The notes below the pieces were generated by a model. The model worked only from the letters and a program-made list of their open reading frames with translations. It was not told the origin of the DNA and did not search any database. The position numbers and the translations under genes are program-made. A stretch of 64,000 nucleotides of DNA, from positions 3,694,001 through 3,758,000 of the forward strand of contig NZ_CP035088.1 in NCBI RefSeq assembly GCF_004786035.1. The letters are read 5' to 3'. The DNA comes from Pseudomonas viciae. GTDB lineage: Bacteria > Pseudomonadota > Gammaproteobacteria > Pseudomonadales > Pseudomonadaceae. Of this stretch, positions 11,145-51,500 are shown one piece after another. Each line of letters opens with the position of its first letter. Within the stretch, counting starts at the first letter, position 1.

Positions 11145-14100
11145 TCAGATACTGCGTTTGCGCGTGAGCGCGGGAATTTTCGTCATCGGCACATCGATAT
11201 GCCGTACCTCGCCCACGGCGGCAGCCACGAGGGCCAGGGTGGGCTGGCCGAACAACACACGGATATCGGCCTCCATGCCGTCCTTGCGCATGCGTTCGAT
11301 CAGCGTCACGGCGAGCAACGAGTGACCACCCAGTTCGAAGAAGTGGTCATGACGCCCCACCCGCTCGACCTTGAGCAACTCCGCCCACAACGCCGCAAGC
11401 TTGACCTCCATATCGCCCACCGGAGCCTCATACAGACGCGTGGTGTACGCATTGCTGTCGGGGGTCGGTAGCGCCTTGCGGTCGAGCTTGCCATTGGGGG
11501 TCAACGGCAATGCATCCAGGCGCACGTAGGCGGCAGGTACCATGTAAGCCGGCAGTTGCGCTTGCAGGTGCGTGCGCAGGGTTTCTATCTCTACTGTTTC
11601 ATCCGGTGAGTGTTGGGTGAAATAGGCCACCAGACGCTTGTCACCCGGCACGTCTTCGCGGGCCAGGACCACGGTTTCCTTGATGTTTGGAGCCTGAGCG
11701 AGCTTGGCTTCGATCTCACCCAGTTCGATGCGGAAACCACGGATCTTCACCTGATCGTCGTTGCGGCCCAGGTATTCGATGTTGCCGTCCGGCAGATAAC
11801 GACCCAGGTCACCGGTCTTGTACATCCGGGTATTTGGCGTGGTGCTGAACGGGTCCTTGAGGAAGCGTTCAGCGGTGAAGTCATCGCGGTTGAGATACCC
11901 GCGAGCGACCCCGGCACCGCCGATGTAGATTTCGCCCGGCACGCCCAGTGGCACCGGTTGTTGGTGCTCATCCAGCAAGTAGAACTGGGTATTGGCCACC
12001 GGTTTGCCGATGTGTGCAGCGAAACCGTCCTCACGGGCCATCGACACCCAACTGGAGTAAGTCGTGGTTTCCGAAGGGCCATAGAGGTTGCACAGGCGCT
12101 TGACCTGGGTCTGTTCGAACAGCGTTTCCACCAGGCTGCGCTTGAGCGCTTCACCGGCGACGTTGACCGTGTCGACGCCCTCGCCCAGTCCCCCGGACTC
12201 CAGCAAGGCCTTGAGCGCCGACGGCACGGTGTTGATCAGGGTAATGTCGTGCTCGCCCTGTTGCAGTTCCAGCACATTAGTGACCACGTCGATGCTGCCG
12301 CCCGACGTCAGCGGCGCGAAGCATTCATAAACGGCCAAGTCGAAGTTCAGCGAGGTCGAGAACAGGGTTTTCGACAGGGTTTGAGCATCAAACGAACGAT
12401 GGGCCCAGGTCAGGAAGTTCACCGTGTTGCGGTGTTCGATCATCACACCCTTGGGCAGGCCGGTCGAACCCGAGGTGTAGATCACGTAGGCCAGATGTGC
12501 GGACGTCAGCTCGGCAACCTGCGGATTCTGGACGGATTCGTCCTGCCACAGCCCGCTGTCGAGATTGATCACTGGCATCGAGGCACCGGTCAACAACCCG
12601 ACTGTAGCGTCCTGGGCCAACACGGCTGCTGGCGCACTGTCTTCCAGCATGTAGGCAATCCGGTCCAGCGGATAAGCCGGATCCAGCGGCACATAACCAC
12701 CGCCGGCCTTGAGAATGGCGAGCAGCCCTACAACCATGTCGATACCACGCTCGACACAAATCGCCACCCGTGAATCAGGCTTCACACCCTGCTTTCGCAG
12801 GTAATGCGCCAAGCGGTTAGCCCGCTCGTTCAGTTCCCCATAGCTCAGGCGTTGCTCGCCGCGAATCACCGCAACGGCATCCGGCGTAAGCTGCACCTGC
12901 TCTTCGAACAACCCGTGAATGGTCTGCTGCTGTGGGTAATCGGCTTCGGTGGCGTTGAACGTCACCAGCAGTTGTTCACGTTCCGAGGCCGGCAGGATCG
13001 CCAACTGATGCAGCGGTGCCTCCGGCGTCTGCTCCAGCATCCGGACCAGATTCTCCAGCGTGTGCTGCACATAACCACAAAGCCGCTGCGCACCAATGCG
13101 TGCCGGGGTCATGACGGTAAAGCTGAACGCCTCGCCCTGATCGTCCACCGACAACATCAATGGGTAGTTGGTCCGCTCTTCGCCACTGAGAATCTGGATA
13201 CCGTTCCAGGCTGACAATGCCTCGCTCGACACTGTCGCGCCGGTGTGGCGGTAGTTGAGCAAGGCACTGAACAACGGCGTCGGCGCCTCTACGCCGCTGC
13301 AGCGTTGCGCCAGCGCCAAGGCGGCGTGTTCATGACCGAGCAATGCGGTCAGGCGAGCGTGGGTCGCTTTCACACCCGCACGAACGCCGGTTTGCCCGAC
13401 ACTCACTCGCAGCGGCAAGGTGTTGATGAACATCCCCAGCGCCCGGTCGGCGCCCTCGCCGCCCTGCATCCGCCCCACCAGCACCGTACCGAACACGACA
13501 TCGTCCTTGCCCGATACCTTACCCAGGACCTGCGCCCAAACCAGGTGATACAAGCTCGCCGCGCTCACCCCAAGCTGTCGCGCCTGAGCTCGCAGCCGGC
13601 GACTCAGAGCGGCCTCGACCTCCTGACGCACCTCTTCGAGGCCGCTGCCGTCGCCTTGCACATCCTGCAAATCGAACGGCAACGTCGGCTCTTCGATGTC
13701 CCCGAGCATCTCGCGGAAGAAGGTTTCGTGCGCTTCACGGCTCACACCCAAGCGGGCCTGGGCCACGAAGTTGCGGTACGGCACCGACGCCGACAGCCGC
13801 TGCGCCTGGCCGAGCATATGCGCCTCGATTTCCGCGGACAGCACCGCCAGTGACGTAACGTCGTCCACCAGATGGTGAAACAACAGCATGCCCACCCAGC
13901 GTTGGTTCGCCGGGTCTTGCCCATAGACCAACCGCATCATGGGCGCCTGACGAATGTCCAGGCGGTAGAACCGGGGGTCGAACCGCTGGTGCAGTTGCGC
14001 GGCGATGTCACCCTGGGCCGGATCCAGCTCAACCGACTCGACACTCAATGGCGCGTCACGCCAGACCACCTGCATGGGCTCGGGCAGGCCTTCCCAGAGC

Positions 14101-48500: not shown

Positions 48501-51500
48501 TAACCGGCACCCGCCTTGAGAATCCCCAGCAGCCCCGCGACCATTTCCAGGCTGCGATCCACGCAGATCGCCACGCGATCATCGGCGCCGATCCCCTGCT
48601 CGATCAGCCGATGGGCAATCTGGTTCGCCAGCCGATTCAGCTCACCGTAGCTCAGGCGCAAGTCCTGATACGTCAGCGCGACAGCTTCCGGCCGGGCCTG
48701 GGCCTGGGCTTCGAACAACTGATGAATCAACACTCCTGCCGGATAGGCCGTATCGAAGGCATTGAAGTCCTCGATCAATTGCCGACGCTCATTGGCGGGG
48801 ACAATATCCAGGCCATGCAGCGGTGTGTCGACCGCCTGATCGAGCGCATCGGCCAGTGCCTCGAGCACGGTATTCATATAGCCGCAAACGCGCTGCGCAC
48901 CAATACCGGCCACGGCTTGCACCGTCAGCCCGAACGACTCGCCCAGGTCGTCTATGGACAGCGACAGCGGGTAGTTGGTCCGCTCCTCGCCGCCCAGGAT
49001 CTCCACACCGGCCCAGGTTCGCGCCAGGCCGGCGTCCTTGGGTGCCTGCGCGGCCACCGCGGTTTGCCGGTAGTTCAGCAATGCGCTGAACAGGGGCGTC
49101 GGTGCGGCGACCCCGCTGCAGCGCTGCGCCAGGGATAACGGCGCGTGTTCGTGACCAAGCAGTGCCGCCAGGCGCTCGTGGGTAGTCTTGAGAGCCGCCA
49201 GCACGCCCTGGCCCCCTGCCTCGACGCGCAGCGGCAGCGTGTTCACGAACATGCCCAGGGCGTGTCCATCGTCCTGGCCGCTGTGCAAGCGGCCCATCAA
49301 CACCGTACCGAACACCACATCCTGACGACCGGACAAACGCCCCACCACTTGAGCCCAAGCCAAATGGTGCAGGCTCGCCGTGCTGACCCCAAGGCGCCGT
49401 GCCTGAGCGCGCAGGCGCTGGGTCAAGTCGGCAGCCAGCGCCAGCGAAGCCTCTTCGATACCGGTGCCGTCGCCCTGCACATCCTGCAAGCCGAACGGCA
49501 GGGTCGGCTCGTCCACGTCCCCGAGCATTTCACTGAAGAACGCTTCATGTTGGCCAGGATCGCTGCCCAAGCGGACCTGCGCCACATAGTTACGATAAGG
49601 CACGGATTTGGGCAGTTCACCCGAACGGTTTTCCAGGTGTGCCTCGATTTCCTTGCCCAGCATGCCCAGGGAAGTGGCGTCATCGATCAAGTGATGGAAC
49701 AGCAATACCGCGACCCAACTGCCGTTGGCGAGGTCTTCGGCCACGTGGATGCGCATCATCGGTGCCTGACGCAGGTCGAAGCGGGTATGGCGAGGATCGA
49801 AGCGGGCCTGCAATTGCTCGGCGATGTCGCCTTCGGCCGCCTCCAGGACGAGTTCTTCTACAATCAGCCGGGCCTGGCGCCAGACCACCTGGACCGGCTC
49901 GCCCAGGTCTTCCCACATCACCGACGTGCGCAGGATGTCGTGCCGCTCGATCACCGCCTGCAAGGCTTGCACGAACGCATCCAACTGTTCGCGACTGCCC
50001 ACGCGCAACAGTGCTTGCAGCAGATAGGGATCGCCCTGAGTCGTCGCCAGGTGGTGATACAGGATGCCTTCCTGCAACGGCACCAGCGCGTAGATGTCCT
50101 GGACGTTGCTCACCCCACCCGGTACCGCCGCGACAATACGGTCGATCTCGTCCTGGGTCAGCGTGGCCAGTGGCAGCATGTCCGGCGTGATGCGCTCGGC
50201 ATCATGGGCAATGGCGTTGTCCGGTACGACGATGCCGCCGCTGGTCCCCGTGACGGCCGCCAGTGTCGCCAGGGTTGGCTGGCCGAACAGCACCCGCACG
50301 TCGGTGTCCAGATTGACCTGGCGCATGCGCTCGATCAGCTTGACCGCCAGCAGCGAGTGACCGCCCAGTTCGAAGAACCGGTCATGGCGCCCCACCCGCT
50401 CGACGCCGAGCAGTTCAGTCCAGAGCCCGGCCAAGGTGATTTCCACGTCGCCTACCGGCGCTTCGAACACGCGATGGGCATAAGCCTCTGCATCGGGCGC
50501 CGGCAGCGCCTTGCGATCGAGCTTGCCATTGGTGGTCAGCGGGAATCGTTCAAGGACCACGAAGGCACTGGGCACCATGTAGTCCGTCAACGAACCCAGC
50601 AGGGTTGAACGCAGTTCGACCACCGACAGCCGTACGCCTTCATTGGCGATCAGATAGGCCACCAGACGTTGATCGCCCGACGCGTCTTCACGGGCGACCA
50701 CCACCACTTCACGTACACCTTCGCACGCCGCCAGCTTCGCCTCGATCTCGCCAAGCTCGATACGGAAGCCGCGAATTTTCACCTGCTCGTCGTTACGCCC
50801 CAGGTATTGCAGCTCACCGTTCTCCAACCAGCGGCCCAGATCACCGGTGCGATACATCCGCGCCCCGGCGGCGCTGTCGAACGGATCGGCGAGGAAGCGG
50901 GTGTCATTGAGTTCGGGCCTGTTCAGGTAGCCTCGCGCCACCCCCGCGCCAGCGACATACAGCTCACCTTCCACGCCCACCGGCACCGGTTGGCCATACG
51001 GGTCGAGCAGGTACAGGCGCAAATCCGGAATTCGCTTACCGATCGGACTGACCCCGATCAACTGCGCGTCGGCCGGTTCAAGCGGACGATACGTCACGTG
51101 CACCGTCGTCTCGGTGATGCCGTACATGTTGACCAGCCGTGTCCCGATGTTGGCTACACGGGCATACCAGGGCTTGAGAATGCCGGTTTCCAGCGCTTCG
51201 CCACCAAAGATCACCTGGCGCAGGCTGTGACGCAGATCGCTTTCGCCCTGGGCCGCGATCAACTGCCGGAAGGCGCTCGGCGTCTGGTTCAACACCGTGA
51301 CGCCGGCCTCGCACAGCAGCGCGTAGCAGTCTTGCGGGGAACGGCTGACCAACTGCGGTACCACCAACAGGCGGCCACCATGGCTCAGCGCCCCCCAAAT
51401 CTCCCAGACCGAGAAGTCGAAAGCGAAGGAATGGAACAGCGCCCATACATCCTGCTGGCCGAACTCGAACCAGGGCTGGGTCGCCGAGAACAGCCGGGCG

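Follow-up and report, generated by a model that had tools for sequence, protein, structure and literature searches.

The window analysed here is a stretch of 64,000 nucleotides from Pseudomonas viciae (NZ_CP035088.1, positions 3,694,001 to 3,758,000). It holds the first, the second and part of the third nonribosomal peptide synthetase (NRPS) gene of the 22-module braspeptin synthetase, all on the minus strand; clusters for brasmycin, braspeptin and brasamide have been described for the rhizosphere isolate Pseudomonas sp. 11K1 (PMC6433849), and deletions of clusters in this strain have been published. Four condensation (C) domains of this synthetase, C2, C9, C13 and C18, are most probably dual-type domains of the condensation/epimerization (C/E) clade which dehydrate Thr1, Thr8, Ser12 and Thr17 to dehydrobutyrine (Dhb) or dehydroalanine (Dha) before these residues are joined. 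A preliminary description of the window had proposed that such domains dehydrate the upstream Thr or Ser while condensing. The proposal is supported by the match between their active-site motif and published Dhb/Dha positions.

The motif, numbered HH-x3-x4-x5-D-x7, is found on the minus strand as HHLIDDATS in C2 (domain 48776–50104, PF00668 match and motif), HHLVDDATS in C9 (26120–27439, motif and domain match) and HHLVDDVTS in C13 (12966–14285, motif and domain match). Its first seven residues lie at 49676–49696 (HHLIDDA, with Asp at position 5, the canonical Asp at 6 and Ala at 7), 27011–27031 (HHLVDDA) and 13857–13877 (HHLVDDV), respectively. Among the 16 dual C domains in the window (C2–C17) only these three belong to this Asp-Asp (DD) class, as had been claimed. 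The remaining 13 read HHxxLDH, or HHxxMDH in C14, and are referred to as LDH or His7 domains. C12 (16218–17534, minus strand), which follows the Ile-type module 11, was singled out earlier and is indeed still of the DH class with HHMVLDHTG; together with C10 (22812–23996, minus strand; HHMALDHAA), located after module 9 read as homoserine (Hse; PMC6433849), it serves as a control.

The donors of the three DD domains are the adenylation-carrier (A-T) pairs A1-T1 (50105–52054; Thr-type signature YGITETTVHVT, carrier motif LGGHSL), A8-T8 (27440–29377; Thr-type) and A12-T12 (14286–16217; Ser-type, YGPTEAAVDVT), all on the minus strand, with spans taken as the gaps between the C1 and C2, C8 and C9, and C12 and C13 matches. 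No other dual domain in the window has Thr or Ser upstream, and the chance of such an exact match is 1 in 560. C18, encoded in the adjoining DNA (L003), is a fourth DD domain with HHMVDDATS after Thr17. The same DNA encodes C19 and C22, both HHMALDHTA, after Thr18 and Ser21. The correlation between the motif and an upstream Thr or Ser is therefore complete inside the window but not one-to-one outside it, and an upstream Thr or Ser as the sole correlate of the DD motif was rejected.

Comparison of HHMALDHTA with HHLVDDATS shows Leu replaced by Asp at position 5, His by Ala or Val at position 7 and Ala by Ser at the ninth residue. When 22 DD rows and 59 His7 rows from the Pseudomonas clade were compared in an alignment of 238 rows, positions 5 and 7 alone among the compared columns showed no residue overlap between the two sets. 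Position 7 of these DD rows is Ala in 20 and Val in 2, so that the HHxxxDH active site is absent. The second Asp of HHLxDD, to which special importance had been given, is the conserved Asp of HHxxxD and is present in ordinary domains too. The new residue is thus the first Asp, at position 5, and mutation of the second, proposed earlier as a test, would not be diagnostic. Two flanking markers also lost their value: IYAL occurs in the LDH domains C19 and C22, while DD domains of relatives carry IYPL or IYGL, and GDPYLLQ occurs in the LDH domains C3 and C15, while the DD domains C9 and C18 read GDPYLQY.

A-domain calls were made from the short signature after YGxTE and calibrated on published co-linear peptides, with Stachelhaus codes and some signature names which we presume to be correct. 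They give the order Thr-Pro-Ala-Leu/Ile-Ala-Val-Ile-Thr-Hse-Val-Ile-Ser-Ala-Ala-Ala-Val-Thr-Thr-Ala-Dab-Ser-Val (Dab, diaminobutyric acid), which is co-linear with corpeptin. Corpeptin carries Dhb at positions 1, 8, 12 and 17 and intact Hse9, allo-Thr18 and Ser21 (table in PMC3039948); Dhb at the first three positions had been mentioned earlier for related peptins. All four DD domains fall at the corpeptin Dhb positions among 19 dual domains (chance 1 in 3876). Hse9, Thr18 and Ser21 of braspeptin each precede an LDH domain, which for Thr18 and Ser21 is what their intact state in corpeptin would require. The DD motif coincides with dehydro positions and not merely with Thr or Ser, which answers in the affirmative the earlier question of whether it tracks Dhb/Dha.

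The same relationship holds in further peptides, where positions were taken from published relatives, most comparison strains having no solved product of their own. Medipeptin contains Dhb1, Dhb8, Dha12 and Dhb17 and intact Thr9, Thr18 and Ser21 by liquid chromatography-tandem mass spectrometry (PMC8477016). Four DD matches and zero ND (Asn-Asp) matches were found in each of P. mediterranea CFBP 5447 and P. corrugata DSM 7228. In tolaasin the dehydro residues are Dhb1 and Dhb13, and all six tolaasin-family genomes (G1009–G1014; three species named as such in PMC9948697, three assigned by likeness) gave two DD matches. In the tolaasin-like cluster of MWU15-20650 the DD domains follow Thr1 and Thr13, and DH-class domains follow Thr14, Ser3 and Ser6. 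Three P. syringae proteins bear the name syringopeptin synthetase. For syringopeptin 22 (SP22), SypA (P0301; Thr-Pro-Val-Val-Ala, residues 1–5) has DD after Thr1 only and SypB (P0253; Ala-Val-Val-Thr-Ala, residues 6–10) after Thr9 only. A SypB of the syringopeptin 25 (SP25) type (P0248; Ala-Thr-Val-Thr-Ala, residues 9–13) has DD only after both Thr residues, the positions of Dhb10 and Dhb12 in SP25. In Pseudomonas sp. KUIN-1, whose syringopeptin-like genes, divided among several frames in the record, were read piecewise, DD is found at C2, C10, C15 and C19, corresponding to Dhb1, 9, 14 and 18 of SP22, and DH-class domains follow Thr15 and Ser16. Fuscopeptin Dhb1 and Dhb14 are matched by DD at C2 and C15 in the fuscopeptin-like cluster of Pseudomonas sp. 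FEN. Wherever the domain was read, undehydrated Thr or Ser in the compared peptides precedes HHxxxDH. A natural contrast is provided by the syringomycin-like C2 after L-Ser1, which has Ser5/Ala7 and no Asp5; Ser1 is kept in syringomycin.

Published masses were also considered. For corpeptin with Dha12 and 3-OH-C10 a hand sum gave 2095.2 (2109.23 minus 14.02), equal to the m/z 2095 quoted in PMC6433849 and pointing to four dehydrations with Dha12; residue 12 is listed as Dhb12 in the table of PMC3039948. For medipeptin A the published 2082.20 is about 1 Da over the computed 2081.20. As a separate observation, the P. zanjanensis synthetase (L134–L137) has five DD domains, the extra one being C5 after a Thr at position 4.

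The DNA pattern for (L/F)FHHxx(I/V)DD was found in 28 of 398 genomes of the genus, with zero matches for reversed-pattern controls in the rows printed. A survey set of 1249 unique D-like (dual-type) C domains was assembled from the loci and from 321 proteins obtained in three protein searches. Since DD or ND queries served as seeds for these searches, each of which listed only its best 120 proteins, the following counts apply among survey matches and are not unbiased proportions. Upstream A types that could not be resolved belong mostly to rows ending at contig edges. The C-domain pattern misses some domains, namely two of 18 in the tolaasin-like cluster, whose places were assigned from the order, and mycin C8, absent from the counts for this reason. 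Asp5 without His7 was found in 154 domains, and 136 of the 139 with a resolved upstream A domain follow Thr or Ser. For His7 (977 domains) the corresponding figure is 117 of 768, for Asn5/Ala7 (71 domains) 1 of 63, this one after Thr, and for other types lacking His7 (47 domains) 5 of 36. Proteins carrying the labels Streptomyces, Lysobacter and Dyella also have Asp5 after Thr or Ser. All dual domains read in five rhizobial loci are His7, including those after Ser.

Some combinations in the survey differ from the main classes: P0118 has Asp5 together with His7 after Thr, P0202 has Asn5 after Thr, and P0184, P0212, P0217 and P0219 have Asn7 with other residues at position 5, again after Thr. 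A different NRPS with HHIIDDNTS was found at three loci (L149 in G395, L150 in G044 and L101 in G307). In L149 and L150 this domain is flanked by two Thr-type modules and preceded by an A-T and a C domain, an order which recalls ureidopeptides such as pseudobulbiferamide (Dhb2).

For phylogenetic analysis the motif columns were removed and trees were calculated with FastTree (237 rows) and IQ-TREE (78 rows, with His7 rows thinned to half). The DD rows lie among the dual C/E rows in both. In IQ-TREE all Pseudomonas DD rows form one clade with moderate support (87/90) inside the dual C/E domains. The FastTree topology requires 14 changes of Asp5. In nine independent pairs on supported branches, with one row (L076) counted by hand as Thr-like and unresolved rows dropped, Thr/Ser changed the same way as Asp5 in 7.2 and the opposite way in 0.3 pairs on average (sign test, median p 0.016, range 0.004–0.45 over 200 pairings). 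With rows lacking His7 alone, eight pairs gave 5.6 versus 0.1 (median p 0.031, range 0.016–0.25).

A mechanism can be proposed by analogy with what is established about the chemistry of dehydrating C domains and of C/E domains. The second His of HHxxxD would take the alpha proton of the peptidyl thioester to give a carbanion, as in epimerization. In an ordinary dual domain, His7 of HHxxxDH would be needed for reprotonation to the D residue. In the DD class His7 is gone, and Asp5 could protonate the leaving beta-hydroxyl group, upon which the carbanion would collapse to the alkene. These roles of Asp5 and His7, the order of steps, and the assignment of dehydration to the DD domain itself rather than to another enzyme are what we infer from the residues, their positions, their co-occurrence with published Dhb/Dha and the placement among dual C/E domains, all of which are read directly. 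The Dhb of tolaasin is Z-Dhb (PMC12948218), which fits anti-elimination from L-Thr.

Several observations weigh against this reading. In FastTree the DD rows of Pseudomonas fall into two groups, one of the C2 type and one with all others. The calibration clusters come mostly from relatives of strains with solved products. Mycin C8, after the Dhb7 position, reads HHL(I/V)SDNVT (Ser5/Asn7) without Asp5 in all three clusters read (brasmycin, KUIN-1 and P. congelans); Asp5 is thus not universal for dehydration, and Dhb in mycins would seem to arise by another route or with another residue pair. The braspeptin ion measured at m/z 2175.493 (PMC6433849) is compatible with four dehydrations only if assigned as [M+K]+ with 3-OH-C10 (2175.219), and other combinations fit slightly better. 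As several assignments fit, the ion does not decide the number of dehydrations and was dropped as proof of four. Finally, three Asp5 domains have a different A type upstream (Ala in P0013, Val-like in P0186 and His-like in L151), so the correlation, earlier called perfect, has 3 exceptions in 139. A DD domain after a residue that cannot be dehydrated, named earlier as evidence that would count against the proposal, occurs once clearly, in P0013.

P0013 (Pseudomonas sp. FW300-N2F2) has an Ala8 module before the DD domain C9 inside a peptin synthetase, an apparent A-domain replacement within a peptin. P0186 is from Streptomyces RTd22, and another protein of the same strain (P0240) has Asp5 after Thr. 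The third, on a plasmid of Methylocystis bryophila, reads HHLIDDNTT after an A domain which we take to be His-like from its code, and has a TauD/TfdA dioxygenase gene directly upstream. It is conceivable that this dioxygenase supplies a beta-hydroxyl group, the product being dehydro-His or hydroxy-His.

Of the other explanations, the best placed, although unlikely, is that an enzyme acting in trans dehydrates the carrier-bound Thr or Ser, while the DD domain only accepts the dehydrated, non-chiral donor. Such a gatekeeper would give the same correlation, loss of His7 would be expected once epimerization is unneeded, and the different residue pair of mycin C8 at a Dhb site agrees with it. The adjacent Thr17 and Thr18, however, share an A signature, yet in the relatives only the Thr preceding DD is dehydrated, so that an enzyme in trans would have to recognise the downstream domain. 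Of the 15 flanking open reading frames scanned against Pfam, the remaining genome being unscanned, none matched a dehydratase family: 11 matched transporter parts, TauD dioxygenase, Asp/Asn hydroxylase, aminotransferase, an A-T didomain and a hydrolase, and 4 matched nothing. Moreover, AmbE, AlbB and LgnD are established cases of C domains dehydrating in cis (PMC10880069).

These last belong to the CmodAA (or DHC) clade, which comprises AmbE, AlbB C2/C3, LgnD C2 and Crz1 C2. They condense after having dehydrated the residue bound to the upstream carrier, as proposed here for DD domains, and follow Ser, Thr or a residue with a beta-hydroxyl group (PMC10880069, PMC11342130), just as DD domains follow Thr or Ser. 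That the DD domains are plain members of CmodAA is nevertheless very improbable. The inferred reaction is the same, both lie in the D-clade, and the donors Thr1, Thr8, Ser12 and Thr17, like the Thr/Ser donors of the survey, would suit. But CmodAA domains have HHxxxDG, a helix with K/R and His, a GGDS-type donor carrier and a clade of their own, whereas DD domains have HHxxDD(A/V), with DA or DV in place of the strict DG. In the helix motif [K/R]SVLLAAH, placed by hand, the K/R and His are Ala and Trp in 22 of 22 DD rows. The carriers T1, T8 and T12 read LGGHSL and T17 reads MGGHSL. In phmmer against C2, AmbE scored 54.8 bits and a PvdL C domain 157 bits. The mean identity of the DD rows is 61% to sampled LDH dual domains, 29% to DCL and 23% to LCL domains, and in both trees they lie among dual C/E rows. 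This comparison relies on the motifs and on phmmer scores for AmbE and a McyA chain, the trees being without a named CmodAA sequence. A DNA pattern for the CmodAA consensus motif gave 3 matches in 369 genomes, with no C-domain motif in the 3 loci, and the CmodAA helix motif was absent from three plasmid NRPS loci. No AmbE was recognised by frame length or place among 16 Condensation matches in a genome close to P. aeruginosa (G878, located with a PvdL stretch once a search of 398 genomes had yielded nothing), their sequences being unread.

A third possibility, substrate tuning only, in which the DD motif would provide Thr/Ser donor selectivity without any modification, is hardly credible: almost all resolved Asp5 domains do follow Thr or Ser, but so do 117 His7 domains, including those after the lactone-forming Thr18 and after Thr modules in proteins of the viscosin/arthrofactin type, so that handling of such donors needs no DD motif and DD matches dehydration instead.

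With the CmodAA hallmarks absent and the placement among dual C/E domains, the DD domains look like a second kind of dehydrating C domain. Among the known systems nearest to them are the arthrofactin-type dual C/E domains of Pseudomonas lipopeptides, with which they share the clade, an identity of about 61% and the N-terminal motif HH[I/L]xxxxGD (HHLAAxxGD, HHLATxxGD or HHIAAxxGD in the DD rows printed). They differ in having Asp in place of Leu, Met or Ile at position 5 and Ala or Val in place of His at position 7, and in their predicted product, an alkene instead of a D residue. A similar idea was put forward in section 19 of a 2023 review (PMC10880069), where 'special dehydrating C/E domains' are suggested for stenothricin C6 and stendomycin C8. 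These C/E-clade domains after Dhb from two actinobacterial systems can be likened to ours by description only, that section giving no signature for them. The same holds for NocB C5 (nocardicin), a dehydrating C domain outside CmodAA that is described as a special DCL domain (PMC10880069). In the open-access papers searched we found no account of the Asp5 signature, of its tie to Dhb in Pseudomonas, or of a link between Asn5/Ala7 and idle epimerization. Dehydrating C domains as such (CmodAA/DHC) are known; the kind with the Asp5 signature appears to be new.

The last-mentioned Asn5/Ala7 domains belong to the same clade but have Asn in place of Asp at position 5, and the residue stays L. Viscosin-group C2, fuscopeptin C4 and jessenipeptin C8 have been reported as E/C domains without epimerization, with HHxxxDH sometimes ending in Ala or Asn, and in the accessible text of that report no unambiguous active-site correlate is known (PMC10531924, where 74 inactive and 394 active domains are covered). 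We read HHLVNDATS in the fuscopeptin-like C4, in the P. gingeri G9001 domain C8 (only its position is jessenipeptin-like), in viscosin-type C2 of three out of three named strains, and in the tolaasin-like domain that follows the position of L-Leu11, a residue which stays L in tolaasin. Asn5/Ala7 thus appears to occur where residues are reported as non-epimerized. SypA C4, after Val3, reads HHMVNDATS. Syringomycin-like domains after D-Ser2 and D-Dab3 have His7. Forty two-module NRPS-A genes (L177–L216), picked by frame length from matches in 77 of 199 genomes, have Asn5/Ala7 in C2 in 26 cases and His7 in 14. Twelve of the latter share a different second A domain (FDSSVWE), a group which we take to be of the arthrofactin/amphisin type with D-Leu1. 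Whether residue 1 is L or D may be predictable from this split in C2. Two cases speak against a simple rule: the domain that follows the position of tolaasin L-Val9 (configurations of L-Val9 and L-Leu11 from PMC2746572) is a His7 domain with HHxxLDH, and viscosin C6, its motif unread here, is reported as inactive (PMC10531924). His7 may therefore be necessary but is not sufficient for epimerization. As a side observation, pieces of P. syringae lipopeptide synthetases (P0202, P0028 and P0189) contain several Asn5/Ala7 domains, of which one follows Thr, as well as a single DDV domain, likewise after Thr.

Taken together, motif C3 might act as a three-state switch, where Leu, Met or Ile at position 5 with His7 epimerizes, Asp5 with Ala, Val or Asn at position 7 dehydrates, and Asn5 with Ala7 does neither, the L residue being handed on unchanged. 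Viscosin-type C2 domains would then descend from dehydrating domains, Asp5 having been lost when the donor was no longer Thr or Ser. We consider the chances of this extended model to be evenly balanced. In IQ-TREE, Asn5/Ala7 groups are nested at two places in the DD clade, including the fuscopeptin-like C4 rows and viscosin-type C2 (local branches 97/72 and 100/99), and an Asn5/Ser5-Ala7 group is found elsewhere among His7 rows. FastTree places viscosin-type C2 outside both DD groups, and the descent from DD domains is therefore provisional.

The NRPS genes of the window comprise modules 1–9 (24317–53491), modules 10–13 (11145–24320) and modules 14–22 (1–10815, continuing past the window edge), all on the minus strand; C18, C19 and C22 of the third lie in the adjoining DNA. 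A11 (17535–19439) carries the Ile-type signature of A7 and A15 (4093–5988) is Ala-type, unlike the Ser11 and Dab15 predicted for braspeptin in PMC6433849. A stretch of 263 residues is identical in A9 (24863–25651) and brasmycin module 4 (L004), both Hse-type, which suggests recent recombination between the two clusters; another printed core is identical between two brasmycin modules. Genes for an A-T didomain, a hydrolase, a TauD dioxygenase and an Asp/Asn hydroxylase lie between the two clusters (56899–61020 on the plus strand, 55545–56624 and 61317–61928 on the minus strand) and resemble chloro-Thr and hydroxy-Asp genes of mycin clusters. The synthetase genes of KUIN-1 (L111–L114) and TH31 (L146–L148) show overlapping split frames, which are real frame breaks or assembly errors.

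If dehydration by the DD domains holds true, about nine residues would suffice to mine genomes for dehydro positions in Pseudomonas lipopeptides, and often for L retention as well; prediction of L or dehydro residues from the active-site sequence was called impossible in a 2023 paper (PMC10531924, as far as its accessible text goes). For the P. zanjanensis peptin an additional Dhb4 would be predicted, and for the FW300-N2F2 peptin the L configuration at Ala8. The three-state switch, if correct, would give one cause for the unexplained 'idle' epimerization in Pseudomonas lipopeptides. The mechanism would be testable, a shared carbanion being partitioned by position 5 versus position 7, and two changes in an epimerizing domain would represent a second evolutionary route to dehydrating C domains.

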